Source of the DNA: Membranipora membranacea
Taxonomy: Eukaryota > Bryozoa > Gymnolaemata > Cheilostomatida > Membraniporidae
DNA: 64,000 bases
Assembly (NCBI GenBank): GCA_914767715.1
Contig: OU612073.1
Location: 25,172,001 to 25,236,000, forward strand
Direction of reading: 5' to 3'
A program made the position numbers and the translations under genes. Below, piece after piece: positions 14,801 through 63,000 of this stretch; position 1 is the first letter of the stretch; every line of letters starts with the position of its first letter. Under the pieces are notes generated by a model. That model was given only the letters and a program-made list of their open reading frames with translations, had not been told where the DNA came from and did not search any database.

Positions 14801-17800
14801 TAGGCTAGTGTAGATATTGTACTACCACTAGGCTAGTGTAGATATTGTACTACCACTAGGCTAGTGTAGACATTGTACTACCACTAGGCTAGTGTAGACC
14901 ACTAGTGTACTACCACTAGGCTAGTGTAGATATTGTACTACCACTAGGCTAGTGTAGACCACTAGTGTACTACCACTAGGCTAGTGTAGATATTGTACTA
15001 CCACTAGGCTAGTGTAGATATTGTACTACCACTAGGCTAGTGTAGACATTGTACTACCACTAGGCTAGTGTAGATATTGTACTACCACTAGGCTAGTGTA
15101 GATATTGTACTACCACTAGGCTAGTGTAGATATTGTACTACCACTAGGCTAGTGTAGACATTGTACTACCACTAGGCTAGTGTAGATATTGTACTACCAC
15201 TAGGCTAGTGTAGACATTGTACTACCACTAGGCTAGTGTAGACATTGTACTACCACTAGGCTAGTGTAGACCACTAGTGTACTACCACTAGGCTAGTGTA
15301 GATATTGTACTACCACTAGGCTAGTGTAGACCACTAGTGTACTACCACTAGGCTAGTGTAGATATTGTACTACCACTAGGCTAGTGTAGATATTGTACTA
15401 CCACTAGGCTAGTGTAGATATTGTACTACCACTAGGCTAGTGTAGACCACTAGTGTACTACCACTAGGCTAGTGTAGACCACTAGTGTACTACCACTAGG
15501 CTAGTGTAGATATTGTACTACCACTAGGCTAGTGTAGATATTGTGCTACCACTAGGCTAGTGTAGATATTGTACTACCACTAGGCTAGGCTAATAGGCTA
15601 CTAGGCCAGTGTAGATATGTGTGAAGACATTACTTACAGTCACATCGAGTAATGTAAGACCAGAATTCTCATTACGTGACACAGCGTCGATAATATCTAG
15701 ACATCCCGTGGTGGTCAGAGGGTTGTTCCCCATCTATAATATAGTAGTAGAAAAACTAAATCAGCCGATATACACAATATACTTGTTGAAAGACATTTAA
15801 ACAACTGCCAGTTAAGGAAAGGATCAAATCGGTCACCTCTTCTACAGAGCAGCCCCTACCCAGGCAAACTGAGATCTCATTCATTAAGCAAGAATCGTCA
15901 CATACTTGACTACCACAATGCAACTCAATACTTGTGCGATTCTTACCTTGAGAATTTCGAGGTAACAGTTTTTCTCTAACATCTCAGCGAGAAATAAGGC
16001 TCCCTCCCAGTTGATCCTGTTATGACTGATGTCGATCTCAACAAGATGCTTGTTGATCATGAGCGCGTCTCTGACTGCGAGCGCCCCTTCGTAATACAGA
16101 CCATTCCATGCCATGTTTAGCTTCTTTAGACTATAGTTCATCTATATAAAACATGAAGAGACAGTGAGTCTGATAGCTTATAAAAAGATTTGAGGGACTT
16201 TCTTGTTTTGAAAAAAGAGAGAAAGTCGAAAGTCCTACTTTTCTCCAGTGGATACAGGCATCAGGCTGAGCATTAATTTGCTCTTTTCTCAAATCGACTA
16301 AACAAAATCAGCCATGTTTGATTCACTTTGATTCAGATCAGCAAACTGAGAGAGACATCAAAGCTACCTCTACAGTAACTATCAGATCAAAGGAAACAAC
16401 TAATATAATGGTCATGTTAAACTCTCATCAATTTGATGTACGCGGTGATATTCTTGAGGAAAGTCACTAAATTCTTGTCTGCACATAAACATGCCAATTT
16501 GCGTTGCTGCGGTTAGCGTGGCTCACCTTGAGGGCCTTACATATGGTGACAGCTCCTTTCCTCCTTATACTGTTCCAGCTTAGATCTAACTCTTCTAGTG
16601 TATCGTTAGCAGCGATAGCCTTACCCATGTATGTAGCACCGTCCTCACTTATGTTATTATGGCTCAGATTTAGCCTTACTATATAATCATTAGCCTGTAA
16701 TAATAAGAAAAATCAGAGCTGTCATGTGTGATAGGAGGCAGAATGACTAGAGCTTTGATTATCAAAGGTATTTCTGAGCTTTAACCATCTTTAAGTCTGG
16801 ACTATTGTGCATTTAAAAAAATTAATGGGAAATAAAATAAAATTGGAAATTTTATCATGGGAGTTGTTTATCCCTGTTATAAAATGGCATAACTTCAAAA
16901 TTATTCCTTGTACTCTTTAGCTAACAGATAGATGAACAGAAATTTATATATATATATATAATGTCATAGAATAGTACCTCAATACCGGCCGCTAAGTACT
17001 TAGCGTCCTCATCTGTAAATCTGTTATCTACAATAGAATGTAGAACGAGTGACTGAGCTGAGTAGACCTCGTATAATTATGATAAGGTCATGTTTTTCAT
17101 AGAATATTATCAATGCTCAGTTGAGAAGTAACATCTGGAACGTCGTTCATGGAATAGTTTAGGAAGCCGCTTTTGAAGCCGACAATAATATCTTTGAAAG
17201 TACATTGAGAGTTAACTAACTGCATGGGAAAGTATTTAAATCTAATTTGTAAAATTTTAGGATGAAGTGATTAAATTAAGATTTGTAGTGGCCAACGGCC
17301 AATCAGATTGCTCTGTCGCTGCTATCATCACTCACTCACTTGATATATCTACATCTGTCAGTATTCTGTTGTTTCTGAACATCTTTGCGATAAAAGCTGA
17401 AATTCCGATAGCACCGAATCCATTACTGGATAAATTCTACAAAGAAAAAAGTTATTATTAGGTCATAGGGAAAAGTTAAAAATGACCCCTGTCCCATCCT
17501 GATAATCGTTTCACAACAACTGCATAACTAGACATAGAAAGAAAACAACTACAAAACCTCACAAGATTATAGCAGCAGGGAGGGTAGTATATCCCACCCT
17601 CCCTGTTTACAAGATCTGAGAATAATCACAACATCAAGTGATGACAACTCACAAGATTAGTGACAAAGTTGTTTGCCATGAGGACAGTAGATATTTCTCT
17701 GCCACCTTCGAATCCGAGGTGATTGTTGCTCAAGTCGAGGTGAGTCAACCGGGTGTTTGCCTATAACAAAGAGATGTCCACAATTGACCAGGGAATCCAT

Positions 17801-30400: not shown

Positions 30401-33400
30401 TTTCATTACCAGTAGGGAAACCACAAAAGTGCCGAGCTGTAGATTATATAGAAATACACAATGATGAAATACACAATAATAAAATAACGCCTTGGCATAG
30501 CTCCAAATGGTAGCCTACAATATATTCTATTCAACTCTCATCAGTAGCCTAGGCCTTGATCCTGTTCAGAAATATTTATGACAAATATGACAAAATAATC
30601 GGGACATTTTTCGTCTTGTTACAAAACTGAATTGTGTAACAATAAAAATTTACTGTCAAATAACAAACCATAGGGGAAGAAAAAGGGGTACTGGGTCTGG
30701 AACAATCCATAGTGGGAAACTGATTGTGCAATCTCATCATCCCCAAATATACAGCTTGAACTTCATAGAGAAATTTGGGTTTTTAATTTTGACTGGCCTC
30801 GGCTCAATCATATCTCAAAGTTCATCCGCTCTCTTTTAATGACAACCTTCCATCTATAGCTGCTCGATACTCTACCTCGTCCCAAACGGGGAGAGGGGGG
30901 GGGGGGGCTGTGCAAGAGTCTGGAGGCTCAGACTATACCTGGTCTTATCACACCCGATAAATCTACAGATATCACAACAAAGTAAGAATATTTTTACTAA
31001 TGCTATCATCACATAGTTAGGACCTCAATAATCGTTCAGTCCCACTTACAGGTCTTCGGTTGGATGTGATTCAGTCACAGTCATTATTTATATATTTAAA
31101 AATGAATTTTCATCCAAACAAGCCTTGTCATATTCATTCTATATCAGGGACATTCACACTAAACATACAATGCCTGTATTGTGTTAACTTGATACACTCT
31201 GACAATAAGGGTCACAATCAGGGTCAGAGGTGATATCATTGTTAGACTAGCTGACCCTAAAATAAGTAAACAAACAAATAAATACTGATTTCACTACAAC
31301 ATTATCATTTCCTGTCAGCATCATTTTGTCTGAGGCTTTGTTGCACAATCCTATCTTATTTGAAATTCACTTTTGATAGTTATGTTGGTAGCTGATAGTT
31401 ATGTTGGTAGTTGATAGTTATGTTGGTAGTTGATAGTTATGTTGGTAGTTGATAGTTATGTTGGTAGTTGATAGTTATGTTGGTAGCTGATAGTTATGTT
31501 GATAGTTGATAGTTATGTTGGTAGCTGATAGTTATGTTGGTAGTTGATAGTTATGTTGATAGTTATGTTGGTAGCTGATAGTTATGTTGGTAGCTGATAG
31601 TTATGTTGATAGTTGATAGTTATGTTGGTAGCTGATAGTTATGTTGGTAGTTGATAGTTATGTTGGTAGTTGATAGTTATGTTGGTAGTTGATAGTTATG
31701 TTGGTAGTTGATAGTTATGTTGGTAGCTGATAGTTATGTTGATAGCTGATAGTTATGTTGGTAGCTGATAGTTATGTTGGTAGTTGATAGTTATGTTGGT
31801 AGTTGATAGTTATGTTGGTAGCTGATAGTTATGTTGGTAGCTGATAGTTATGTTGGTAGTTGATAGTTATGTTGGTAGCTGATAGTTATGTTGGTAGCTG
31901 ATAGTTATGTTGGTAGCTGATAGTTATGTTGGTAGCTGATAGTTATGTTGGTAGCTGATAGTTATGTTGGTAGTTGACAGTTATGTTGGTAGTTGACAGT
32001 TATGTTGGTAGTTGATAGTTATGTTGGTAGCTGATAGTTATGTTGGTAGCTGATAGTTATGTTGGTAGTTGATAGTTATGTTGGTAGTTGATAGTTATGT
32101 TGGTAGTTGATAGTTATGTTGGTAGTTGATAGTTATGTTGGTAGTTGATAGTTATGTTGGTAGTTGTGTTGGTAGTTGATAGTTATGTTGGTAGTTGATA
32201 GTTATGTTGGTAGTTGATAGTTATGTTGGTAGTTGATAGTTATGTTGGTAGCTGTGTTGGTAGTTGATAGTTATGTTGGTAGTTGATAGTTATGTTGGTA
32301 GTTGATAGTTATGTTGGTAGTTGATAGTTATGTTGGTAGCTGTGTTGGTAGTTGATAGCTATGTTGGTAGTTGATAGTTATGTTGGTAGTTGATAGTTAT
32401 GTTGGTAGTTGATAGTTATGTTGGTAGTTGATAGTTATGTTGGTAGTTGATAGTTATGTTGGTAGTTGATAGTTATGTTGGTAGTTGATAGTTATGTTGG
32501 TAGTTGATAGTTATGTTGGTAGTTGATAGTTATGTTGGTAGTTGATAGTTATGTTGGTAGTTGATAGTTATGTTGGTAGTTGATAGTTATGTTGGTAGTT
32601 GATAGTTATGTTGGTAGCTGATAGTTATGTTGGTAGCTGATAGTTATGTTGGTAGCTGATAGTTATGTTGGTAGTTGATAGTTATGTTGGTAGTTGATAG
32701 TTATGTTGGTAGTTGATAGTTATGTTGGTAGTTGATAGTTATGTTGGTAGTTGATAGTTATGTTGGTAGTTGATAGTTATGTTGGTAGTTGATAGTTATG
32801 TTGGTGGCTTTATTTATTTGTGCAGTCATTTTTTAACTGTGACTAACAACTTCTGAAAATCGTAAGTCCGATTGCTACCCAAGTAATAGTAATAGTAATA
32901 GTAATAGTAATAGTAATAGTAATAGTAATAGGCCCTATTGTGAAGCATGTGGGTCGCTTTTCAGTATCGCGGTTACGATATTGTATCCTCGATCACAACA
33001 GACAATAAAAATGTTCAATAAAAATTCATGCCCCTATAAATACTATGGTAATTCAATAAGCAAAAATAATTAACTCCTCAGCCCTGTTGGTAGTTTCATC
33101 AGAGACTATAGATATATCTATAGTCTCTGGTTTCATCATGACAGCTATAATACTAATGATTTTTACCACAAGCTAATTTTGGAAAATCAAAATAATGATC
33201 CAAACAAAATACATAACACAGACATAACACTCCTATCACATATCATTCAGTTATGCACTGGGAATTGCTCAACCATGCTAAGAGGAAAAGAGGAAAACTC
33301 TCATTTGCTGAGTCCATTTTGCAACAAGACTGTTCCTTTCATCAGGGAGTTTGGGACCGCTTTCATCAATATACATATATATTCATATCAATGGTTCCTT

Positions 33401-34772
33401 TGCTAATCGATGCAAATTGGTAAAATGAAGCAGCTGCACTCAAGTAACTTACAAACCCCCCATGATACTACATGGTAATAATATCAGTGTGACCAACCTG
33501 TTTGTGGTCCTTAAACAATTTAAAGTCACCCTATCATGAGATTCGAGTCGCAAATAATAAATCCACACACCAAAAGCTTAGCCCTAAAATCTGTCTATAT
33601 ATCACAACTGACGGCATGTGGGCTGCCGGATAAAGTGTAATTTATCAGAGCCATCAAATAATACCCTATGGCAACCATACACCAAGTAAGCCTATAAATT
33701 TTTTAAAAGCAGCAGAGAATGGCCTAGTCTTTCTTATTGCTGAAACGGCCCCAGACACATGAAATAAGTATGTAATTAAGAAAGGTAACAACAAGCTCAC
33801 CTGTTCGTCAGCATCCTGGTCTGTAGTGACAGCCACCATCTCCATACATACAGGCCTCAGCACAGTCTTTGTAGCCACAACCAAGGTGTTCGTAACCTCA
33901 GACTTATTTTGCTCCACAAGGTGCAGCTCAATGATTCCGTCATTAGTGATCAGAGCTAAGAGGTTTTTGTTACTCTCAACTTGTTTTACACTTATACACT
34001 TGATTCTGTTGGCATTCACTTTGAATTCATGGATCGACTGTCCACTTTCCAGATCGAGGAAACACACTTTGCCACCTTCACAACCAGCAGCAATAACATT
34101 ATCACTGATGAAGTCAACTGAATGAGCTTTGCCTGGCAATTTGATAGAGTGGATGGTGGCAGCGTTGCTTACTGAGCAGACATCTAGTTTACCGTTATAA
34201 CAGAGGACATACTTGTCACCGCCTGGTGTCCATTTGACAATGTCTACAGGCGCAGGTGTGCTGGTGGTGTATGCACGCTTTGCTGTGACAAGATTCCAGG
34301 TCCTGATGGTCCTATCCTGACCAACAGAGAGCAAGAGCTTGCCAGTGGGATGAACTGCAAGACTCAAAACAGACCCCCTGTGACCGGTCATGGTTTTCAG
34401 GCATTCAAATGATTTTCCAAGAATCTTCCAAATGCAGATAGTACCAACATCATCTGATGAGAGCATGAACTCATCATGGAATTCTATAGCAGTGATTGTA
34501 CCACTATGTTTCATCAAAGTACCAGCTTCTTGTCTGGTTTTCAGGTTAAAAAGCTGAATAGTTTCATCAGCTGAGCCAGATGCCAAAAGTCTATTTGAAG
34601 AAACAGCTAGAGCGCGGACAGATGCACAGTGTGATTTGTCTGTGAATGATAGTTTGAGTTTTGCTTCATCTTCTGAGCTGGATAATGAGTAGCCAAAGAG
34701 CACCTGCTCATATGAACCCACCACAATTTCAACATCGAGTCCAAGAGCATGAGTTTTGACGGGGGCTGCCAT
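27433..34772 (-). CDS. PAK1IP1: PAK1IP1/Mak11-type WD40 protein, 4 exons, 454 aa
   Basis: Exons are 34772-33801, 29537-29378, 28566-28454 and 27552-27433, all in phase (1365 nt with TGA). The first exon encodes residues 1-324, a WD40 propeller opening with the family signature VVGSYEQVLFGYSL, then repeats with LLASGSADETIQLFNL, FMLSSDDVGTICIWK, LLLSVGQDRTIRTWNLV and a more divergent second half. Exons 2-4 encode a Lys/Ser-rich disordered tail (NRKRAS, KTKRNKK, QKMAGRKKQHRAQ) like the basic tails of PAK1IP1 and yeast Mak11. Family role: nucleolar 60S subunit assembly, and in mammals also PAK1 inhibition. The 4.3-kb first intron carries a satellite. The tail exons could instead be a separate 170-aa gene starting at an ATG at 29657; the phase-0 match at 33801/29537 and the basic tail favour one gene. 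An acceptor-like TTTCAG lies 24 nt before the ATG. Confidence 0.85.
31374..32812. repeat. 19-bp satellite array, about 75 copies
   Basis: Units of GATAGTTATGTTGGTAGTT, with a C/T variant in the last GTT/GCT, an occasional TGATAG for TGGTAG, and several units lacking the GATAGTTAT part (near 32160, 32250 and 32340). The array fills 1.4 kb of the first intron of the PAK1IP1 gene. It is followed at 32882-32931 by a separate AATAGT hexanucleotide run of about eight copies. Confidence 0.95.
33100..33129. repeat. 30-bp perfect palindrome with flanking direct repeats
   Basis: CAGAGACTATAGATA and its exact complement. The heptamer GTTTCAT lies immediately on both sides (33093-33099 and 33130-33136). 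The CAGAGA end and short target repeat suggest two fused terminal repeats of a hAT-like element. It is in the PAK1IP1 intron. Confidence 0.65.
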
Positions 34773-35368
34773 TGTGTTTCCGTTTAGATTGAGAAGCTGA
34801 AATGGGAATAACGGATTAAGTAAACAGCCCCGATCCTATGTCGAGAATCGATTGAGGATCCTGGTTTATGACATTCAGAGAACCTTGAAAATCAAAACAA
34901 CCAAAAAGTCCTACATCATCATCACTGATTTTGAGTTGGGAACTTTAACCTGGTGTTAGTGTATTTTTTGTTTCTATCTTCAAGTGTTCAGCATTGAGAG
35001 ATAAGGCAGCTCCTTTCGGATCAGGTATGTGATGCTGATTCCAAGGAGTATTTACTCATTGGTGATTCAGAGGAGAATAATATTATTGAATTCAAGATAA
35101 TTGGATAACTCCAGTTTGGGTATCTTTGTTGTTGTAATCCTTGAGTTACAGGTAACAGATTGTTACCCCTTGCCTTGATTAAATACCTTTGAAAACATTG
35201 AACACTAACAAACACAAAGTGAAAGGAGTGCTTCATTTTGATAACAGTGTTAATTAGGGTGTTTTACTACAGCAGGGGGAAGTAACAACATCTATCTCAT
35301 CTGCTGTTCTTATTTTTCTGTGGTAGGTGTTACTGTCATTACAGAAAAAAATCCCTGAATGGGTAGAA

Positions 35369-35449
35369 CCTAGCCTGTCTTAACAAGCTTTGTTGTGGGG
35401 GGTAGGAGGACAACAACCCCCACAACAAAGCTTGTAAAGACGGGCTAGG
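35369..35449. repeat. long inverted repeat, about 33-bp arms
   Basis: Left arm CCTAGCCTGTCTTAACAAGC continuing to TTTGTTGTGGGGG, right arm its near-perfect complement ending GACGGGCTAGG, with a 15-bp loop. No obvious target duplication. Foldback or MITE remnant. Confidence 0.75.
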
Positions 35450-35984
35450 TTGGCACACTTACACTTATACATACACTACGTCAATCTGACTCACCTTGTT
35501 AAAGCGGGCATTGTTTCAGATCGGTTTGTCAGATTGCTTTTGATGTTCTGTCCCAATATATGTAGATGGCCAAGTCGATTTGGCACACTAGCCAGTTTTA
35601 TGAAAAAAGTCATTGTGGAGGGTTTGTTGGTGCAGCCAGTTTTGCGTGCTAGGACGCATAGGCCTATTTTAGGAATTGTTCCAATCCAATTCTCCATGGG
35701 GACTAATCAAATTTGATTCTGTAAACACAGAGGTTAACTCACCTCTGGCGGCAAATCTTGTTGTTAATTTTGTCGTCACATTTATTTGGTTATCAGATAT
35801 CACATCATAGGCCTGAGTTTAGATACTGTTACTTTTCTTTCCTCTGCTGTGGGGTCTGCAAGCCACGCTTAGAGCTGACATAAGCGACTCAATATCCTTA
35901 TTGAGGGTGGCATAAACATATTAAGGCAGAAGGCGGCCATTTTTTGGGCTGTCATGTAGACCATGTTTGATTGTTCCAAGACAT

Positions 35985-36699: not shown

Positions 36700-38553
36700 A
36701 TGAGTGAGCTAGGAACAGTCGAAGTCATCATCGAGCACTGGTAAGTTTTACAGAATTCAGCTTCAAGCTTATACTGCAAGCGGCGCATTCGGTGCAGAAC
36801 CGGTTCTTGATTGAATGGTGATGCGGCGCCTAAGCAAACCATGGTTTGCTAATAATGTTCAAACAAATCCTATTCTCTTCATTGCAGAACCTATGCCTGT
36901 ATCTATTCCCGCCTAATCACTTTGTGTGAAATGGGGGACCTTACAAGTCTGATTGTTCCAGCCCCCAGTACCAGTAGGGTGTATGGTCATGTGGAATGAT
37001 GGTTTAGCTGGTTGCAGAAGATGTAATAGGCTTTCTTGTACTAAAAAAAGATAATCCATGTATTAGGTTCACATCGGCTTTTCACCTCTGACACGATGTC
37101 ACTGAAGGGAACCTGTTGTACATTCAGACAATCACCATATTGATCATGATCTATTCCTAAATTCTGCTAATGTACTTGACTTTCTGACTGACTTGTTGAT
37201 GGTTTTATAGCTCTCAATGAGGTTACGGTCCGAGAGCTCAGGCTCTCAAAGATAAAATACTGAGTGTTGTGACGGACGCCAACGTTAATGTCAAGGCTGG
37301 CCGAGCAAGTAAGTACTCATCTTTCTTTGACTTATACTAGACGGGGGCCGTCGGGAGGGGAGCGGGGGTGGGTCAGACTATACTAGATGTTGCTAAGCTG
37401 ACATTCACCGGCTGGTAGATTGGTGATGTTCATCTGAGGGAGGAGAACTGAGTGGTAGCATAAGGCTGCTGGATAAATTGTTCATTGCTATTAAACCAAT
37501 TTATCATAGGAATAACTGGCTAAAGTTGTTGTTGTGAAATTATTTGAGCACACGCCTGATTAAGTGTCAGGAAGCCTGAACTCAACTTATAACGTAATTT
37601 CTCTATGTCATATTGAAAGTTCGCATGCAATAGCTAACCAGCTTTTATCTCAGAACTTTGTCCCATGAATGAAAGAGCCTACGGTTACTGTTGAACAAAC
37701 AATGGGATACAATCATTATCATTGTTAACTCAATCCAAGTGCTTAAAATTGTTTCCCAACTCTGGGGTCATCTTCTCTGAAATGCTTGTTACACCCTCCC
37801 TGGTTACACACAGATTAAGATTTATCAAAGGATATTTGAGTCATCTGCTCTCAACAACGAGTTTCTTTATAGTTTATCATTTTTTAGCCCATGTGTATCG
37901 GGGTTAAGGTAACTTACTTAAATCTGAAATTTGTTCTCTATTTACAGCCTCATATGAGATTATTATTAACGGAGATCTCATCTTCTCCAAATTAGAGACA
38001 GGGCAGTTCCCTGACGACGCCGTGGTATGTGTATTTTCTTCCTGAGGTCGTTTATATCGAAGGACTCATTTAATCTATATACTGATTAATCACACCCTCA
38101 GTTTATACCAAACAATATTGTACTCTGATGACTTTCTAAGAGGAATATCATTACGATGAAACTGTATAATAAAGCGCGCAGACATTTTGAATTGCGTAAA
38201 TCAATGACACATTTCTCCTGCACCGGCAGTTGGTTTGGATGTTTGTAGTTACTTTTTGCAAACATTGATAATATTTATAATGGAAAATGGGATCGCTACC
38301 CATTGCACACATCTGCAATGTTTTTACTCATTGTCAGAGAGGAGCATAAGATCACATATATTTTTGATTTGTTCTCAAACTACTGCTATGTAGGATGCTC
38401 AGTGTCCCTTTTGTGTTCCCCCTGATGACTGCTAATAATAGTAATGACTGGATATTTCTATTATAGCTTATAGAAGAGATTAGAGCAGTGGCTTCTGGAC
38501 AAAAGAAGCCGGAGACAGTCACTGAGTACGAGAGGGGCTGCTGTATTCTCTAA
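36700..38553 (+). CDS. MIEN1/SelW-family selenoprotein with CxxU motif and CaaX box, 4 exons, 100 aa
   Basis: Exons are 36700-36740, 37211-37308, 37948-38024 and 38467-38553; phases agree and the sum is 303 nt with TAA. The protein has a short strand (TVEVIIEHC), the redox motif C14-S-Q-U17 followed by GYGPRAQALK, then SYEIIINGDLIFSKLETGQF and a helix, ending CCIL. This is the thioredoxin-like Rdx family (SelW, SelT, SelH, Rdx12/MIEN1). The C-terminal CaaX box and the NG-L-FSKLE-G-FP segment point to the MIEN1 (Rdx12, C17orf37) branch, whose human member has CxxC and a prenylated CVIL end. Here the second cysteine is a TGA at 37218-37220. Frame continues for 83 codons after it with family-specific residues, so it is read as selenocysteine, not stop. 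A SECIS candidate lies 337 nt past the stop. Expected role: membrane-tethered redox protein; partners unknown. Confidence 0.9.
37218..37220 (+). other. selenocysteine codon (TGA) of the MIEN1-like protein
   Basis: In the context TGC-TCT-CAA-TGA-GGT-TAC (C-S-Q-U-G-Y), at exactly the position of Sec in SelW (CxxU-G-Y) and of the second Cys in MIEN1. The Cys14 codon is split by the intron (TG at 36740, C at 37211). Confidence 0.88.
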
Positions 38554-38797
38554 CGCTGCACCTATACAAATAGAACTCAGTCTATCTAATATATTAGTAA
38601 ACATTATTTGGTCCATATTGCCATGGATGTGGTCTTTATTTATAAAAAATCCTATCAACAAATCATACTATGTATCTACCATATTTCTAAGGCTTCAGAC
38701 AGGCTTTGAACTTTTTGGAAAGCAGCATTTCAGCGCAGAAATGAAGATACAATCCTGTTTTTCATTCTAATAATATTTGTTTTGATATTGTCCTTCC

Positions 38798-38836
38798 TTG
38801 AGTTGTCTCCTCAGATATTGAGAGAGGACAACTCAA
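38798..38836 (+). promoter_or_regulatory. strong 3'-UTR hairpin upstream of the SECIS
   Basis: TTGAGTTGTC and GACAACTCAA form a perfect 10-bp stem, extended by CTC/GAG pairs around a loop. It lacks the ATGA/TGAT quartet, so it is not itself a SECIS. Role unknown. Confidence 0.6.
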
Positions 38837-38879
38837 CTGGGTCACTATTGAAAAGACTGAATGATGTTAACTATGGGCT

Positions 38880-38945
38880 ACATGGTCTCATGATTAGATA
38901 ATACTAAGCTGTTTATTCAGTGTATTATCTCTGATAGCTAATGCC
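38880..38945 (+). promoter_or_regulatory. SECIS element (form II-like)
   Basis: All SECIS landmarks are present: ATGA at 38890-38893; a 9-bp helix AGATAATAC (38896-38904) with GTATTATCT (38922-38930); unpaired AA at 38906-38907 at the top of the helix, 12 nt after ATGA; a small extra CTG/CAG apical stem; and TGAT at 38932-38935 opposite ATGA to form the non-canonical G-A pairs. The basal helix is weaker by eye. The element would recruit SBP2 to decode the TGA at 37218. A candidate poly(A) signal AATAAA follows at 39193-39198, which keeps the SECIS within the 3' UTR. Confidence 0.8.
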
Positions 38946-40348
38946 ACAAGCCCCAGCTTAACATCTCACTGCAATTTTTTCTTCTAGCACTCAAAGTGTG
39001 ACCAATCAGTATATTTAAGTAACAAATCATAATCATGCGCTGTCTTTAGCTGAGAAATAGATTATACTTTTCAGTGTTGTCTACAAAAGTTGTAGGTCTG
39101 TTGTAATTTGGATGAGACAAGAATTAAGATATTTTAACTTCTTCCTGATTTGAAGTCTGCAGAACAGTTTATGATCAAAACTATGATGCTGGAATAAAAC
39201 CCTATCACAGTTAAAACTGAAAAGTCGTATCTAATAATATGTGAAAGACGCAGTTACATCTAATTAATATACTGGGCAACAGCCTAGGAATTTGGCTACG
39301 GAATTGGTAGAAATTAAATAACAAAATATATTATTTGCTATCACGAACTCATTAAACACTAACATTAAATCAAAACTGATTTCATTTTCAACACCTCAAC
39401 AGTGGAGGGGAGAACAACTTCCAATAAGCTTGACTATTATTGTTGCTGGTCCTATGCAAATAAAACGCTAGGGAAGGCTACTTGATTGGTTGTTTGGTGG
39501 GAATCTTCTTTTTTTATCTATACATTTTTCTGATACAATAGTCTGCTTGGTTGAAAATGGCTCATAGATTTGATGATGTAACAACTTACTGCTCAGAGAT
39601 CACTGGAAGCTAAGAAATGTTGGGTTAATTCATGTCTGCCGAGTTCTCGAGGTTTGTCAATCGTTATTCTAAATTCAATATGAATGTTTTGAAGCGGAAA
39701 AATAAAGAGAGTGAAAGTTGGACCAGTACTCACCGAATACAACACCCAGAGAGGGGAGACAAATTTGAGACGACACGAAATTGAAACTTTGAATTCCGGG
39801 CAATCCTATCAACCTGATTGTGAAAAAATATGTTAGTACCGCCTTATAATAAAACTTTGAGTGAGAAGATACTAATTGGCTCATAACATGATATAAGTTT
39901 GTTGATGAAGTTGATCTGAGCTGAGATTTTATGTTGAGTCATGTGAGTGGACGGGTATTTGTGATATTCACTTCTAGATTTCATTTCTTCAATTCCTTCT
40001 CATAACCTTTCCTATATATAATATGTAAGCATTCTCGGATGAGAAGTCATAAATTAAACAAACAAACAAACAAACAAACAATGATAATGACAATTTTAGT
40101 GACGAAATTCATCATAACAGGAGGGCAGAAATTGATATAAATGACTATCTGTATACCGGAATTATTCCCTAAACTACGAGTTTCAATGGTGCATGTTCTG
40201 AATCAAAAATCGATTTTAACCTATTATAAGCAGTTTTCAAAATAACCCTCCTTTTTCTTATGCGACGTGGGTTACAAATATCATGCGGGAGAGAGGACAA
40301 CTCAGAATAGGGGCTAAAAAAACTGTCTATATAATTGATTAAAAGGTT

Positions 40349-51014: not shown

Positions 51015-54000
51015 CTATCTAAAATAATGACCTGGACTAGTAACAGATGTGACGTCTCCAGTTTCTTCTCTCCTGCCTCCGTGGAGGTTGATCCTTCTTC
51101 CTTTCTTTGCTTGCCTGCTGGGAGGATCGTGATACTTGGGTGGATTCGGCCTGTCATCGTATCGATCGGATGAATCTCTCCTCTTAGAATCATATTTCTC
51201 ATCATAGCGGTCATCGAGCCTCGACTTTGGATATCTTGATTTCTCAGACTGATAGTACAGGTCTGAGTCCCGATACTTTGGTTGTGGTTCGTCATACTGC
51301 TGATCGCTTCGGTGATCCTTATTGTTGTATCTACCGTAGCTTCTTTCTCTGTGAGGCCTGTCTCGGCTGCTGTCTCTATGGCGTCTCCCACCATTATTAT
51401 CCCGACGTTGTCCGTCTCTGCTGTCGTCTCTCGGCTGCCTTTCTCTGCTGTCGTCTCTCACGCGACGATCTCTCTTATCATCTCTACCTATGTCTCGTCT
51501 TATGTCATCTCTTCTGTATCTATCCTGTTGCTCATCTCTGTTACTGTGGTATGTGGGTTCGTAGGACTGATTATCATAGGATTGATTAGGATAACAGGTA
51601 GCCTGTATACTACTCTCACTGGGAGTTCTCTCCCTTGTGTACATACGCCCGGTGGGATGAGGATCAGCCACCGTCTCCACCTCTGTAATGCTGTTTCTCC
51701 TTTTGTAGAATAAGCGTTCTGGTGAAGGCTCTACTTTTCCGTTAGATCTGAAAAGAGAAAGTGATGTGTTGCATTCAATCTTCCGTGACTGATATTGTAG
51801 CCATTTTAATGAGTCGATAGATATTGAGCTTTTTGAGTAGATTGAACAGCAAGAAATCCTGCAGCAATTGGGGCACCAATTTATTTGTGTACATGAACAG
51901 AGCCACAGTTGTGAGATTAGTGCGATAAGAACATACTATACCCAACACATACTCATCTGCTCTCCTACAAAGACAAAGAGTCGACAATGAGAGACTGCTA
52001 GTCTATAGTCACTACAGATAGACACTACAGACACTCCCTCAGGGATATTCAGTTAATGTGTGAGAGGGAGTTTTCAGCGGCAGACTCACTTCTTATTTTG
52101 TCTGACAATAACAGCAATGATAACAATGATGATGGTCAGCGCCACGAGTCCACAGCTAACTCCGATTATGATGATGAGATTCTGTTGAGTTATTGCAGGT
52201 GCTGCCGTACCCAGAGAGAGAGTAGTCGTACTGCCTCCTGTACCCGGATCTGTACTTGTCACCGTGCTTGTAGTCGTTATTGGAGCCGCAATGTTCTGTA
52301 CTGGTACACCTGAAAAAAAAAGTATAACAGTATTCATATCACGTTCGCGATGTTGTCGTTATATAACAACGATTGCAATAAAGGTAACTTAGGAGCTGCC
52401 ATTTCTTGAAAGCAAGTGGTTGGTCATGCGAGAAAGATTTTATCCTAGCTCCAAACAGCCAGTCATCGTGTACTAGTTCATTAAGTTGATGTATTGATTT
52501 ATTTACTTACCTAAAGAGTCGTGTATTTCAGTAGAAGCAGACGTTACAGTTTGTTGTAGTTGTGAAGCACTAAGTACTCCTGTACCAGGTATTAATGAGT
52601 AGATAGCTAACAGTAAGTCACCATTGTCATCTATTTGTGGATAACCAGACAATCGTGAGAAGTATTCCTTATAGAATGTTACCGACAAAGATCTCTTCCT
52701 GTTCAACACAGTCATCAGAAAAATACTTTTAAGAAATAGATAAATTAACAGAAACAAACAGAGAGTACCTGACCAAAGATTAAGGAATTAAATGTTTGTA
52801 ATGGTTTGTAAATTGAATTGAGCATTTTGTGTAAAAATCATGGGAGTTGCCCTCTTTTATAAAAAGAGAAGACAAGTCATTTTAGGAAACCTCGCTGCTA
52901 CTATGTGGTGCATAAAAGCTATGACTGTTAATTAGCCTTCTTTAATACATACATACCTTCGCTTTTTTGAATCCGAGGCGACAGATTTGAAATCACAAGT
53001 AATATTTTGACATTGATTTGTGGCTTCATCAGCTAATACTGTGAAAAGTTGGATCTCCATCTCCACTGTGTACTGAAAGGCAAAACCTTATTATAGCATT
53101 ATTGGGTATCATCTAAAATTGTATCACCCAAAAAATCACCGAAGTGAGTCAAGTACCCTGGGTCTTTTTAGTGAATCAGGATATAAAATAAGCAAATAAA
53201 GGATTTCAGTGTCATAGCATGATATTAGAAATACCTTATTTATGCTTCTTTAGCTCATTGAGGTTGTCCTTTCCCAATCAACAAAAAAGGCCAGGTAAAA
53301 TTATATTCCAAATTGTTTACCTGTTCAATGGCGAGTCCAGCAAGTGAAAACTGCAGAGAATTATATTCTACCTCTGGAGCAGCATTCTTAGTTACATTAG
53401 CTGCAGGCTCAGTATACACAATCTCTGTAATTCAATAATTGTTACATGTTGAGTAGACTATCATGATGGGTCTTTTGTTTTATTTCAGGGAAGCAGTCTA
53501 GTTTTGCATAAAGTGAGAAAGCAAATATCTGTCTATAACTATATGGTCTTGCGGGCCCCTCTGTTCTAAAATTAACATCAAAGTACTCATGAGAAAATGT
53601 CTATAGTTTATGGGGCTTTCAATAGATTAGGTCAAAACAAACAATGTCAGCATTGACTACAGTGGAAGTTTTTTATTTGTTTGGTTCCACCGCAACATGT
53701 TATGTGCTGGGGCTCATTTTAATTTTTTCACGAACATTTATCGGGCTTTATTTATTGATCACAAATCTTTTGATAATAAAATCAAAAAATCTATTAATGA
53801 TCTTCAATCAGAAAAATGCGAAAAAAGTTTGCACTATTTTGCATATTGAAATTAAAAAGAGAAACAAAAGCTCACATGTAACATAAAAATAGAGAGTTTG
53901 CCCTGAGTGCGGTGCGTGCCCTTGGTCTAGGTTTCTGGCCAGTCGAGTTGACCTTCGAGGAGCAGTTGTTGGTTTGTAACTTGCCATCACACCATTAAGG

Positions 54001-57000
54001 CAGTGCTCTGTGTTATTTTCTATATTACACATGTACTCTTGGCTCGTCTGGTTGAGGAGATCAAGTACTTGTTGTATCTCAATGTTTGCTGTTCGGTCAT
54101 TGTAATCGAGACCACACGGATCAAGAACCTTGAGTACCAAATTTTCTACACGCAGGATCCTCGTTCTTTGTTGCTGAGAAGCAATGGAATACCAGGAGGG
54201 AGAAGCATACAGGAGAATGGGACGGATGCATGCTATGTAGAAATGTTTCAGTGCACTGATAGGCATTCCAGATCGTTTGAGGTTTATCAGTGTATATATT
54301 ATTGGTCTAGTCTTTTTCACGAGGTGATCAACGTGTTGTTTGAATGTCAGATTGTTGTCAATCACGACACCTAAAAACTTAGTGCTTGTCTCGTTTGAGA
54401 ATCTGTGCGGCTCGATCTTTTGACTGATGTGCACATTTGAGAACGTCATGCTCACTGATTTTGTTGGATTGGCTATCATGTTATTCTCAACACACCATTC
54501 TGTGGTCTCGTCTATGTCTTGCTGCAGTTGTTCGGTCTTTTCGCTAGATGAAGATGGTATGAGTGTCACGTCATTGGCGTACTTGATGGTAGTGCATGAT
54601 GGAGACAGATTATCTATGTACAACAGCCAGAACATTGGACCCAAGAGAGTACCTTGAGGTGTACCATTCTTGGTTGAGAGTGTGGAACTATGCTCACTGC
54701 CCAGTTTGACGTTCTGCTGCCGTTGACTAAGGAAACTGTGTATGATCAGCACCAGACGTTTGTTTATACCACGATCGGCTAACATTTCTATGAGTTTGCC
54801 CTTATCCATCCTGTCGAAGGCTTTGGACATATCAAGGAAAGTCGCAGGCACGGTATTCACTTTTGGCTCATCCAACATGCGTGTTAGGGTATCGACGACT
54901 AATAGAATAGCATCAGTAGTACACCTACCCTTTTGATATGCAAACTGGCCAGCACTGAGAGTTGGTAAAACAGAACGGGCATAAAAATACATGATAGCTT
55001 TCTCAACTAATTTACCAAGATTCCATAGAAGTGATATTGGTCTAAAATCAGAAGGTTTCTCGGCACATTTAGTTTTCTCAAACGGCACAATTTCAGCCTT
55101 TTTCCAGATATACTTGTATCGATCTGGTTCATCCAGGCTTTGACTTGGCCGATGCTGACTGTCAGCTCATAATCAGGAAGATCAGTTGTAACACAATCGA
55201 TGTCTATGTCAGTGGGTACGCCAGATATGTCAGTGAAGTATGTGTTCAGGGTTTCAGCGGCAGATTTAGGATTCATGAGTTCTTCGTTTATAGTGTAAAC
55301 ACCTTTAATTTTGGTTGTTTTTTCTTTGCAACTCAGGATATTTATGGTACTCCACATTGACTTTAAGTTATTAATACTCATTTTTTGACTCATCCACTTG
55401 CGCTTAGACTCTCTCAGATGGTTTTTTAGCAGCTTCGAGAAGAACTTGGCAGTGTTGTCTCCCCGTTTACTGGCTTAAGTCTTGGCGTTGCGTAGCTTTC
55501 TGGCGATGTAGAGTCTCTTTCAAGTTATTCATTGACAACAAGTTATTTTTAATTTGCTTTAATTATAAACTTTTAGAAAAGCTCAATAAAAAATAAATAA
55601 ATAAAATGGAATATGCAGTCAGTACGAGCTCGTAAGTTTGTTCAGCAATCAAAATACTTTGGAGGGCATTCCCATGGTTGGGAACGGGCAGCACTGCTTT
55701 CAATCATTCTACTGACGAAATGCAAATCTTTTTGTTCGTGTTGTATGCAGTAGTATGTGTGACTAGGAAACATGAAATGGTCGAAACAACCTTGAGCACT
55801 GTGCTTGCGTCAGGACTTGTCCTATTATTTGAATTTCCGAGAAAATATATTGGGTATCATTGCAGCAACTGTTGCACCATTGTCACCGGTGTTTACCAAA
55901 TACCAGTTTGAATGAATTTCAAGTTGGCAACTAATCATGTAGGGATCGCAGGTACATATTAGGCAAGCATTGATCTTTTTTAACATCATGCAATGAGTGA
56001 TACCGAAATGGCACTAAACTTACCTCTGCATTCACCATCTTCTAAGACCTGATCTGTACCACAAACACATTCATAGCCACCTGCTGTGTTAGAGCATGTC
56101 TGTGTAGAGGTGCAGTTATATGTACCCTGTATACATTCATTCACGTCTGTGAATATAAAATATAAACGCTGTTTGTAAACACTTTTAAAACAAAAAATAG
56201 CTGACAACTCATAACAAACTCACTTCAAGCAGTCATTCTGTACTAAGTTTCATATTTGAGAATGAAAATACAACAATGGGGTATTATCTCTTAATTTGGC
56301 CAAAGCTCATCCAAGATTGAGCAAAAATCCAAGTATCGTCGTTATATTCCCCATCTTAAGAGGATGATATTATTATTATATGCACTCACCGTTACAGTCA
56401 TACTCATTAACAGCTAGCCAGTATCCCTCCATACAGCTACATGTATATCCTCCGTTAGCATTAGTACAGATCTGAGTGCACGCTGCTGCTCCGGTACTAC
56501 ATTCATCTATATCATCACATGTAGAGCCGTCGGCAGCGTTCAGCTCATAGCCTTTCATACATGAGCACTGCTGCTGATTATCCACCACATTACAGTAACC
56601 GTTAGTTGAGTCACACTGGTTCTGATCATCACATGGATTTGATGCTGTAAAGCACAGAGGACATGTTAATTACTAGCGTGGCTGAGGAATCTGTTGTCTT
56701 GTCAGAGATTCTCAAAATTTGTGACCCTTTGACAGGACAGAGATTTGTGAAATGATTTATACCAGTTTTGAGCCTGTCAGTTCATCCAAGATTTTCTTGA
56801 GTCATTTTTCATTTATAATAAAATTTATTCATTTATTAAATTTAATTCGTTTTTGAATGACACCATGGTGTGTATCATCAGCAAGTTACAGGTGCACAAC
56901 TACACAAGAAATGATTCATTTACTAAATTATTGTTATAACTCACGTTCACAGTTGAGGTTGTCATCCATGAGCTGGAAATATTCCTCACAGGAGCACATG

Positions 57001-60000
57001 AAGGAACCTTCAGTGTTAGTACACAGCTGGTGACACGGCTGTAGTGTTGTACATTCATCGATGTCTAGTAATGAAATCAGAGAATATAAAACATGAACCG
57101 GGTCAAATATGGACATAAACCAATTAATTGTAGGGTGGCAGATTTTCATCTCATACACGAATAACCAATACTTTTTACAGACATTTGTAGTTTAAGAGAT
57201 TGAAGAGTGAAATATATTATGTAACTTTAAGACATTGGGTGATATTAGCTGAGAATAATAGGCGGGTCCTTAGGCTCAGTCATTATAATATCCATAATAA
57301 TATAATTCATAATTAATAATAATAATAATAATAATAATTCAAGGCTTAACATGGACAATACCTGAAGATAGCAGAAAGAAGAGATGAAACAAAGACATAT
57401 AAGTGGATAAAGAATGGATTTATGAAAAAAAGAGACTGAAATTATCAAAGCAGCGCAGGATCAGGCATTACCCACACAGTGGAAAAAGGTACACATAGAA
57501 AAGCAGGAAGAAACATCAAAATGTAGAATGTGCAATGGGACAAACTGAGTATAAGAAGAGGCACGACAAAGTGGCTCAACTTGTCCACTGGAACCCGTGC
57601 AAGAAGTTTGGATTAGACCACGCTAGAAATTGGTATGCACATACAACAGACAAAGTAATAAAAAACGGTAAGGTGAAAATTCTGTGAAATTGTGGAAGAC
57701 ATCAATAACTGTGATATAAATCGTAGTAGGAGCACTAGGGGCGGTAGCAAGACTAGATGAGTACATGAGCATGCTTGATAGAAAAGACAGAGAACAGTTC
57801 TCAGCTCTATTAGGAAGCACAAAGATGCTGAGAAAGGTGTCGGATATCTCAGGTGAGGATACCAATCACACGCCAGTTTCACAGCTGTGTAAATCAACAC
57901 TAGAAATACTAATCACCATGTATATGGTCATTATGGTCACGATGAGATTTGTGATTGATAAGATGATATGTTGAGAAGCCTCACAACACAAGGAATCATT
58001 GCATAGTGACGAGGTTGGAGATGAATGAAGGATCACACAATATGCACTCTCTAGATATACCCACATCATATAACAGGATAGATATAGATAGGACTCTCAC
58101 CATCACAAGAGATTCCATCGTCACTATTGAGGGTATAGCCTGTGGTACATGAGCAGACGAAGGATCCAGGCGAGTTTACACACGTCTGATCACAGCTATC
58201 TAAGGCACATTCATCTACGTCAGCGCATGACTTACCGTCTCCGTCGTATCCAGCCGGGCAAGCTCCACATCTATAAGTGATAGAGAAATAAAGAGAGAAA
58301 GAGAAAAAAGGGTAGGCTACTTTCTCAAATTTTGTAGGCTCAGCTCCCCTCCATGGGTTTCTGCATTCTTTTTTTATTGCAAGCTCAATGATCAAAAACA
58401 CAAAAAGAAACTGACAGGAGGTCTAAATAGTAATAAGCCAGCAAAGTGGAAGGGGTCCAAGATTGGTTTTAAAATTATACTTGAAAATTATTTTAGTTGG
58501 CAAAATTTGAAGATTTTAGAGTCGATTGACAGATTATCATTAATTATATTATTATTATTATTCGCTAATATTGTTTATAGTTTGTAATATCATCCACTCC
58601 TCTTACTTTCTTACTTCAAAAAGTCTCAACGAAATCCCGACTAAAGGATTATAGACTTTTGTCAGTTATTAAGAATAATGACTTACGAGTATCCCTCATG
58701 ATCAGCTGGTGCTGGCTCATCCACACAGAGAACTCCAGGATAGCACGGGCTAGAGACCAACTCACAAGCATCTAAATCTGTCTCACACAGCTCTCCTGTG
58801 TAACCTGTCGGGCACTGACAGTCTAACACCAGCGTACTGTAATATAACAATATGTACCTCACAGTTAAATACATGGAGATTTATACAGTGATATTGACTC
58901 AGGATAAAATAAAGCTTGTCTGTTTTTTAAAACTTTAATCGGCAGTTCATGGTTAAGGAGTTTAGGAATTGTGGAAACTTAAGTTAAAAAATCTCAGTTA
59001 AAAATACACTTTGGTTGATTGTTTATACAGTCAACTGTTGAAATCAAGAGTTTAATAATTAAATGTAACAAACTTGATACATAAGGCAAAAAATCCATAA
59101 TATTGACATCAGTATTTTTCTGATTCAAATTAGTATATTTAAGGCCAGAAGAAAAGTGATGTTAATAAATTAGTAGGAATCTTTGTTTTTATTATTTTAT
59201 AACTGAAGACAGATTGAGGTTCTCAGTCTCACCCTAGTAGCTTCGTTTGATATGTAGCTGGGTGAGCTAAGTAGAAGCTAGAGGCAGAGTAAAATTAATG
59301 GAAATGGGCTTCACTTAATGTTTTGGGATTGCATAAAAAATTACAAAGAAAACATAATTATTTTATGTTATAAAACACCCTTCAATGCTTCAGCCCTTTC
59401 TTCTACCAAGTGTAAATGCTGTAAGCGAATGATTGTCATGAGCGCTTTTGAATTTGTAGTATTCACACACAGTAGCTGTAATGAATTAATAAACCATTCA
59501 CAAGGTTATACTCAATCATTATAATATAATGTATTGTGACACAATTTTACCTACAAACTATAGCTTCACAAGCTCACCTCGTTTCTGCGTCACTAATTTG
59601 TGTAGCGGTGAGCTCGATACATGTACCATTGTTGGCACAGCTGCATAGCATGACCAGAGGGGTGAAAGCTGTTACTGTATCCGCAGTGTCCTTTAAACAT
59701 AAATTCACACATGATTACAATAACAATTCCAAAAACTAATAAAATTTATTAGTACTTTGAACTTAAGACATTGTTTTCACGTTTCAACCATTCTTTCAAA
59801 TACCTGGTGAGCACGGATATTTTCGAACAATTTCCTATTGTCTATTTTTTGTTAAGCTGTACTCAATGTAACACATTACATAATGGTCGAGTAAATTCAC
59901 CTACGTAAAGTGTTTCATTGAGTACAGCTTAACAAAAGACAGACAAAAGATATAAATGTTTAAAAATATCCGAGCTTACCGGCAATGATTCATCAGTTGG

Positions 60001-63000
60001 CCAGTGAGTACATTTAATTAGTATTTGAGAGAACGGTTGAAATAGGGAAAACAATGTCAAAAGTTTGTCGCCACTGAGCTGAGTTTCATATTTTACAGCA
60101 CTTTATTACATACGAGCACATTTTTTCTCCTTCTGCTTTGCAATTTAAATCTCTGATGTCACATTTATTTTACAACCGAACTATGATACCGAGTTATATG
60201 TTTGATTTTCTCAATCATATAAGCTCACTCAATGATCCCCTTCTCTCCCCTTATCATACCTTAGCTCTAACAGTGAGGCTGAAGTCTGTAGCGTTCTCTG
60301 GTAAATCGCTCTGTCTGAGGGAGAAAGTTATCTGCACTTCACCATCAGCGTTAGGGCCAGCTATCTGTGCTGATGCGTTCAGACTAGATGAAACAGTGAT
60401 GTCATCACCGTTTGAGTCATTAACGAGGATACTATAAGTGAATTCCTCATCAAGGGTAACTAGGATGTTTGATGAAGAATTGATGGTAGGAGCAAAATTA
60501 CCTAAAAAATAACAAGAGTAAATTGTTTTTCAAGTGTTAAACATGCAGCATCAATCAATTGACTGCTGAAACGATAATGAACTAATTCTCTGTTCTATAA
60601 GTCTTCATGAATCATATTGTTTAAAATATAAATTCAACATGAAGTTAATATCCCAATTGAGCGTACCTAGAGCAGCATTGGTCTTAGCACTCTCCTCTGC
60701 AGTAGCCTTGCTGCTCTCACCAATAGCTAAGTCACCAGTGACAAACACATCATACAAACACGCTGTATCCATCCCGCATGTGTCATACGCTGAATCTCTG
60801 AAGCTGTCCGAGCTCCAAACCCAGTTAGCGACATTGTCAGTAAACACAGGCACAAACGTGTTATTATTATAAGTTAACCAGTCTGTACCGGCCTCAGTGT
60901 AGAACATGATCGAGTCCTCCTCACTTACAGCAACTGCAGAATATTAAAGTTAGATTTGTTCATGAGAAAAAACAGAATCTCGATAGAAATAATACACTAT
61001 TTAAAATGTGGTGGTCTAATAATGGTCTACCTGATAACTGGGGTCCGATTGTCACATACAAATTACAATGCAAAACTAAATCCAAGATCCTATTTACTAT
61101 AAATCCTTAGCCTAACATACATTCTTTAAAAGCAGATTGGCAGCAATGTGACAATGAATTAGAACGGCATGCCTAGACAAGAATCAGAGAAACATGTACG
61201 TATTGTACCCATTTCTGATAATCTTGTTAAAATCAATGTACTGTAAAATTGCAATAATGTTTCTGCCTTCATTACATTTCACTCACATGTTTCTGCCCAC
61301 TCAAATATTTCACTCTCGGTTGAATTGACGGATATATGACCGGTTTCATTCAGGTAAGTGAGGTCATTCTCTGTGTCGTCATCGTAAACACCAGTCAGAC
61401 CCACAGTGTTACCAATGGCATCAGTAGGCAAGCCCAAAGTCAACGTCAGCATTTTCTAAAAAAAAAGAAATGTGAGACTGACAAAAACCACTCATGTGGG
61501 GCATAATGCCCGTAAGCTTACATTATCAATCACTTAGAAGAGTTGGACCAGCAAACAATTTAATATTTCCTCACATAGTTGTGAAAAGTGAATGAATGAT
61601 TCCTTTAGTGTATATATTTATTACTGTAATAGCTGTTAGATATCAGTACGGAGAGTATTTTCTGATACAAATGAATGGTTGATTTTGCAATTGTGCGGTT
61701 CAAGATCCGGTCACTTTGTAAACAAAAGTAACCAACTACAATATGATTACAAGAGAGGATTCAACTTACGCTGCCAGCTGCGGCTTCTAGTGACAGTCCT
61801 GAAGTGGTGAGCACTGTGACGCTGATATTTGATCGTTTGAACAGCAGTGAGTCTGTCACCCCATCGATGGTCTCTGTCTCGTTAGAGTCCTGTGTGATTT
61901 GTGTTACATTTATCATTGTACCATTTACAACCAGCTGAATGGCGTCTTCAGACAGACTAGAGTTGGTATCTTTATTCAGCTGAAGCTGAACTCTTGGTAA
62001 GCCTACTGACTCTATACAGATAGCGCTAAAATAGGTCGCTTGACCATAACCTACAGCAAATAACCTACAGCAAATAACCTACAGCAAATAACCTACAGCA
62101 AATGACCTACAGCAAATAACCTACAGCAAATAACCTACAGCAAATAGCGATCATGTTGAACAATGACACATATATAAATTGATGTTTTCCCATACCATGA
62201 AGATTTCAGCTTTTAGCTTTTACAATGTGAAATAATTCAATCGGTGTTGTATCACTTGCCTTCTGTCCAGAATGGATCAGCATACATTTATTGCGGTTCC
62301 TTAACTTGCATTAATCATAATCAGCTTATTGTAGCCGGTATACTTATAATTTAGACTTACCTCCGTCATTGAGTTTAACCCTCTCAGTCCTAGCTTGGAT
62401 AACTGTTTCGTTGTGGCCGATTCTTGTGAACAAGTATTCACCCTGTCCATTAAACGTGTACGACAGCCCATCAGTGGTGACAATATGAGGGTCTCCAAAC
62501 CATGGTCCTTTAGAATAATGATAAATTGTTAATGTAAGGCATGGTCTCCAAAACTCTCACTCAGATGTTTTATCATCTGTGATTTGTAGAACTCTCCCAG
62601 TCGTTATAACAGGGCTTCACAAAACAACTCCCATGAATCCAAAGAGCTCAAAGGAAGAACAGGTGTAGAAAAGTACTTACTAATTCTGACAGGGATATAT
62701 CCGGTACCATCACTGGAGGGTCGAGTAAAATAGAATAGCTTACACATACCGATACTCTCAACACAACATTTCTGATATCCATACTCCTCGCTGTCAGTGT
62801 CGTGCTGAAATTACACGACTTTATTATTATTGTTCTATCAAGAGGGCAAACATGATTTCAATATCCGACAAACATTCTTTGCAATTAGAGTAAAAAAACG
62901 GGTCACAGAATGTTGGAAGAAGCAGCCCTCAGCATGACATTGGTTTCGATGAAAGTGAATTAATACCTATAATCATTATATAATAGTTGAAGTACTATCT

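Follow-up and report, generated by a model that had tools for sequence, protein, structure and literature searches.

Selenocysteine (Sec)-containing SelW2 proteins have been reported from bony fish, frog and elephant shark (PMC3316567), from the sea squirt Ciona (PMC2874816) and, in a paper on selenoproteins, from the flatworms Schmidtea and Schistosoma and from Trichoplax (PMC3828610). One to three SelW selenoproteins are given for each of six invertebrates, a sponge among them (PMC3473315). For vertebrates, a Sec ancestor has been proposed, tetrapod Rdx12 being the Cys relative of Sec SelW2 (Mariotti et al. 2012, PMC3316567), and the CxxU/CxxC position is described there as the place where the family carries either Sec or Cys. 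Human MIEN1 is reported to be geranylgeranylated at its CAAX motif, CVIL (PMC6738349).

The gene described here lies in a stretch of 64,000 nucleotides (C9:25172001-25236000), hereafter the window, of the 339 Mb genome (18 contigs) of the bryozoan Membranipora membranacea. Its predicted product resembles the SelW2 of fish, frog and shark by a Sec position at CxxU (PMC3316567), an Rdx domain and a CaaX end. It differs from fish-type SelW2 in overall sequence (36-41% identity), in having CSQU instead of CGGU or CGAU, and in its CCIL end. As to the CaaX end of fish-type SelW2, the Acipenser record P0114 ("selenoprotein W, 2a, partial") begins just past the Sec site and ends in CVIL; the unnamed rows near it (P0109, P0112, P0113 and P0115) have a W at the Sec site and end in CVIL or CVIM. 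Human and tetrapod MIEN1 (Rdx12, C17orf37) shares with the window protein 34% identity over the compared segment, a thioredoxin-like fold and a CaaX box, but has CxxC, with a Cys where the window gene has TGA. For Ciona, Schmidtea, Schistosoma and Trichoplax, the comparison extends to the published naming of their proteins as SelW2 selenoproteins. Selenoprotein W (SelW1, mouse 2NPB) has the Rdx-type fold and CxxU in common with the window protein. SelW1 is not known to carry a CaaX box.

Homology, a nearly identical public protein, matches to tRNA-Sec and SepSecS in the genome and two related loci on contigs C2 and C8 support what had been proposed from the letters of the window, a Sec-encoding MIEN1/SelW homologue with a SECIS element. 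The window gene is very probably a Sec-encoding SelW2/MIEN1 gene of the Rdx family. It is ordinary in kind, since fish and a number of invertebrates have already provided Sec-containing members of the SelW2 family.

Gene structure and the in-frame TGA

The four coding exons (Table 1) join into 303 nt, i.e., 100 codons, whose translation is MSELGTVEVIIEHCSQ*GYGPRAQ...ERGCCIL*, the first asterisk standing for the TGA. All three introns have GT-AG ends, an in-frame TAG is found upstream of the ATG, and the TGA of codon 17 is the sole in-frame stop ahead of the TAA in the spliced gene. The sequence-only reading had given the borders of the four exons, which turned out to be exact on splicing. The spliced translation also reproduces the TGA at 37218, the 83 codons that it had counted beyond this TGA and the CCIL C-terminus. 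The Cys of CxxU is split by an intron as it had stated, intron 1 interrupting the codon of Cys14 after TG (TG/C).

Table 1. Coordinates of the probable selenoprotein gene in the window and of the related loci in the same genome (exon positions of the C2 paralogue are those of L009)
Feature	Location	Strand	Content and basis
Coding exon 1	36700..36740	+	MSELGTVEVIIEH and TG of Cys14; spliced translation, GT donor
Coding exon 2, bearing the CxxU motif	37211..37308	+	spliced translation; genome protein search, one TGA inside
TGA, proposed Sec codon, residue 17	37218..37220	+	in frame; P0001 has W there
Coding exon 3	37948..38024	+	SYEIIINGDLIFSKLETGQFPDDAV; spliced translation; genome protein search
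Coding exon 4	38467..38553	+	CCIL (CaaX box), then TAA; spliced translation; genome protein search
SECIS core, Form 2	38890..38935	+	ATGA, 9-bp helix II, UAA bulge, 4-bp mini-helix, TGAT
Full SECIS fold with basal helix I (GGGCU/AGCCC)	38875..38953	+	fold -23.0 kcal/mol, z -2.42
AATAAA polyadenylation signal	39193..39198	+	3' of the SECIS
C2 paralogue	L009 = C2:39242500-39249000		exons 750-787, 1046-1143, 2871-2947, 3720-3806
Divergent C8 copy	L010 = C8:6470500-6476000		CERU (TGA at U) in a 98-nt exon, same phase

A search of 5.8 billion proteins with the window protein led to a single match, P0001 (100 aa, 99% identical), which comes from the sources jgi and lgn and from two contigs, the longest of 1109 nt. 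The sole difference from the window product is a W at residue 17, which would be what a gene caller using TGA=Trp prints. Since the exons of the window gene span 1854 nt whereas the contig of P0001 does not exceed 1109 nt, a spliced copy is likely to stand behind this record. Furthermore, the spliced message measures, by arithmetic, about 0.95 kb from the ATG to the polyadenylation signal, so that the 1109-nt contig could hold the SECIS. P0001 thus likely derives from a spliced copy in which the TGA is kept, the TGA under the W and the 3' UTR being deduced from the protein record.

Protein family and fold

The window protein matches the Pfam family Rdx (PF10262) with an E of 2.1e-17 and 63.6 bits, for a cut-off of 22.6, over residues 8-78, i.e., on both sides of the TGA. 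The best match among PDB sequences, human MIEN1 (2LJK, E 4.8e-12), covers residues 7-99; at E 0.001, mouse SelW (2NPB) is absent from these PDB matches. Both the Rdx and the PDB matches therefore place homology upstream and downstream of the in-frame TGA. When the genome was searched exon by exon with PF10262, no match was obtained at E 0.001, probably because the exons are short; the search with the protein as query did succeed.

The AlphaFold model, made from 46 sequences with P0001 first and thus a W at residue 17, has a pLDDT of 83.9. It predicts the order strand-helix-strand-strand-strand-helix, with an extra one-turn helix, an order that fits the MIEN1 fold described in PMC3527542. In this predicted model, CSQ-TGA (residues 14-17) is flanked by a strand (8-13) and a helix (20-33). 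Foldseek returned 23 matches at E up to 0.001, all of them chains of eight entries: 2OBK, 2OKA, 2P0G, 2FA8, 3DEX, 2OJL, 2LJK (MIEN1) and 2NPB (mouse SelW). Six of these are bacterial, and the eight correspond to MIEN1 plus its structural relatives as given in PMC3527542.

The SECIS element

The structure of ATGA, AA, a 9-bp stem and TGAT that had been noticed past the stop is present, and its core starts after 336 nt of 3' sequence. AUGA is followed by 2 nt and by nine perfect pairs topped by a UAA bulge; then come a mini-helix of 4 bp closed by a loop of 6 nt, the 3' strand, a single nucleotide and UGAU. An AAG is read as the AAR motif. This Form-2 layout, with its core quartets, AAR motif and helix II, matches the SECIS features described in PMC2746813. 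A SECIS carrying all three of the latter features is present in the 3' UTR.

Over 81 nt, the fold reaches -23.0 kcal/mol (z -2.42), a value reached by 4 of 200 shuffles. A strict descriptor, composed after the candidate had been seen, has a single match in the 64 kb, both strands included, at 38890. On one strand of 1.92 Mb of Markov sequence, taken as the null, it finds 1 match with at least 9 bp, 11 with at least 8 and 29 with at least 7. A looser descriptor gives four forward matches in the window, three of which score 7.0: the one at 38890 and two distant from the selenoprotein gene, at 6864 and 60438. Because of these equal scores, the SECIS element alone is moderate evidence. The Rfam search, taken to an E of 10, gives no SECIS family.

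Related loci on C2 and C8

With the window protein as query, the genome yields six matches at E up to 10. Three of them are exons of the window gene; of the others, two are on C2 (1.1e-4 and 0.027) and the last is on C8 (1.1e-4). The C2 paralogue is 59% identical to the window protein; it has the same exon phases, a TGA in CSSU and the same CCIL end. Its SECIS-like element begins at 4060 of L009, 253 nt 3' of the stop, and is the top match of the loose descriptor in this 6.5-kb locus, where the remaining matches (base 6, and 2142 on the opposite strand) score 6.5. The SECIS cores of the C2 and window genes have the same geometry and align without gaps over 46 nt, with 25 of 26 cells paired and one unpaired, to be compared with 23-46% paired in slid controls. 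Five pairs are changed on both sides, a number of double changes reached by 20 of 500 shuffles, for a covariation that comes from two sequences. Short direct repeats of the last coding stretch are also seen 3' of the stop of the C2 copy.

In the more divergent C8 copy, the exon that follows the one with CERU reads SFEVTVNGTLIFSKLEDKKYPD, and a SECIS-like element at 3160 of L010 is the sole site among loose-descriptor matches there. No in-frame ATG was seen in the CERU exon and no start was found for this copy. The CaaX box of the window protein, shared by the C2 paralogue, is not seen in the C8 copy as read.

These loci bear on the possibility that the window gene is a SelW2 pseudogene in decay, its TGA having arisen by chance as a nonsense mutation. 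A young pseudogene would also show a lone TGA in an otherwise open frame, and the protein search does match three loci of the genome. However, the TGA falls exactly at the family Sec site, in the window gene as in both other loci, the splice sites are intact, the public 100-aa P0001 is unbroken, and the SECIS is not only present but conserved through paired changes in the C2 copy. Decay of the gene is thus very improbable.

Selenocysteine machinery of the host genome

A tRNA-Sec is found in the host genome with 78.6 bits for a cut-off of 47, and ARAGORN calls the same locus tRNA-SeC with anticodon tca; in the same search, the cut-off is passed by 5 of 14 control genomes. A second tRNA-Sec-like match, L002 (C7:17939905-17939985), stays under the cut-off with 40.1 bits. 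The SepSecS family gives six neighbouring matches on C2 (best 7.4e-31), which cover positions 30-388 of the 389 of the profile. Stops inside four of the six are taken for reading into introns. The SepSecS cut-off is also passed by 3 of the 14 control genomes, Bacillus subtilis included. Sec machinery is thus present in the host, in the form of tRNA-Sec and SepSecS-family matches.

These matches, together with the SECIS and with the position of the TGA, where the family is known to have Sec or Cys (PMC3316567), argue against a TGA decoded as an ordinary amino acid, Trp or other, through an altered nuclear code or ordinary readthrough. The W of P0001, as printed by a gene caller using TGA=Trp, would agree with such a reading; in the neighbouring WD-repeat and reverse-transcriptase frames, TGG occurs four and five times and TGA never, a weak argument to the contrary since both frames were picked for being open. 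An ordinary amino acid at this position appears even less probable than decay of the gene. That the gene chiefly yields a short form, or one with an exon skipped, the TGA serving as a stop, deserves equally little credence: this reading could invoke a Schistosoma japonicum SelW2 isoform without the first exon (two ESTs, given with a caution about error or contamination in PMC3828610), but a stop at the TGA would leave 16 residues only, the sequence after it matches the family and, as exon 2 has 98 nt, its skipping would shift the frame.

Relatives, CaaX box and ancestry of the Sec form

Three homologue searches gave 202 proteins, most of them in unnamed rows. The window protein alone led to P0001 only. 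With words of human MIEN1 added, mostly named vertebrates are found among the 120 matches listed, and W-bearing seeds then led to many unnamed records. The motif CxxW[GA][YFWH], with a W at the Sec site, occurs in 67 of the 202 proteins, a set that is selected since W-bearing seeds were used in the search. We infer from the protein records that W stands for TGA in these relatives. A Cys is found at -4 in 43 of the 67; in four others (P0121, P0123, P0160 and P0161) a W comes after the CaaX box, apparently through readthrough of a stop. This brings to 47 the W-site proteins with a Cys at the CaaX place (43 at the end and 4 before W), and the remaining 20 have no CaaX box or are cut. In the SelW2-like proteins P0181, P0189 and P0191, which have a W at the Sec site, GGFILV, DGVILV or DGLILV replaces the CaaX box, as if the CaaX Cys had been lost; P0191 continues past the equivalent position.

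The combination of Sec with a CaaX box, from which an ancestral Sec form had been suggested, is not special to the Membranipora genome, since fish-type SelW2 rows have both. An ancestral Sec form does agree, with a reservation, with the trees. Two trees were built on 82-94 columns, with eight hand-chosen tetrapod Cys-MIEN1 rows and other rows that came mostly from the search with W-bearing seeds. The eight Cys rows form one group in both trees (100/100 and 100/99), nested in a set of 25 (100/95) or 29 (97/97) rows that otherwise have Sec and CaaX. This nesting, within a set so selected, accords with the Sec ancestor proposed in PMC3316567; the origin of the rows in a W-bearing-seed search weighs on the other side. 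The window protein falls at different places in the two trees, and its branch is long in one of them. In the first tree, it splits off below all other eukaryotic rows, and the branch of the only mouse SelW row measures 4.18. In the second, the window protein pairs with P0181, which has no CaaX box (81/81).

Proposed mode of action

Codon 17 of the window gene, UGA, would be read as selenocysteine under the direction of the Form-2 SECIS in the 3' UTR. Going by the anatomy of the gene and established knowledge, this recoding would proceed through SBP2/eEFSec and Sec-tRNA. The product would be small and thioredoxin-like, and its CxxU redox pair suggests a redox role. Leu at the X of a CaaX box makes geranylgeranyl transferase I the favoured enzyme. 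The CCIL end may be prenylated in analogy to that of human MIEN1, and the lipid would then anchor the selenol redox centre at the inner side of the membrane. For the window protein, Sec insertion and prenylation are both expected from its sequence. No prenylated selenoprotein is announced in the titles and abstract openings of the papers listed in the literature searches, which leave out most subscription papers.

SelW2 may constitute a class of prenylated selenoproteins that is both old and widespread, with a selenol thioredoxin-like centre held by the CaaX lipid at the cytosolic face of the membrane. Tetrapod MIEN1 would be a Cys-converted survivor of this class, a view for which we see evenly matched chances. 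If the cancer-linked MIEN1 is such a survivor, its role in signalling may have come from one that depended on selenium. The window gene adds to the SelW2 family a well-documented member, plus two related loci of the same genome, and facilitates tests of the Sec-to-Cys history of MIEN1. It also draws attention to selenoproteins expected to be prenylated, this association of Sec with a CaaX box being the part that is worth following up. Ordinary annotation would probably cut the window protein at residue 16 or miss the gene, as is generally the case for selenoprotein genes, which are mis-cut or missed (PMC3473315).

Other features of the window

A long WD-repeat frame (33669-34835, minus strand), which we take to resemble PAK1IP1, lies head-to-head with the selenoprotein gene. 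Also on the minus strand are a reverse-transcriptase frame (53811-55166; RVT_1, E 6.4e-24), which belongs to a retroelement, and an EGF-like frame (58069-58422) and a mucin-4-like C8-3 frame (60608-60943), which are perhaps parts of one extracellular protein gene. A hairpin at 35367-35451, with 35-nt arms that are 94% complementary and separated by 15 nt, gives sub-threshold matches to several microRNA families and is perhaps a small inverted-repeat element. Three tandem arrays occur in the window: 19-base units in 76.9 copies (31373-32805), 28-base units in 27.6 copies (14793-15588) and 36-base units in 22.4 copies (5276-6080).
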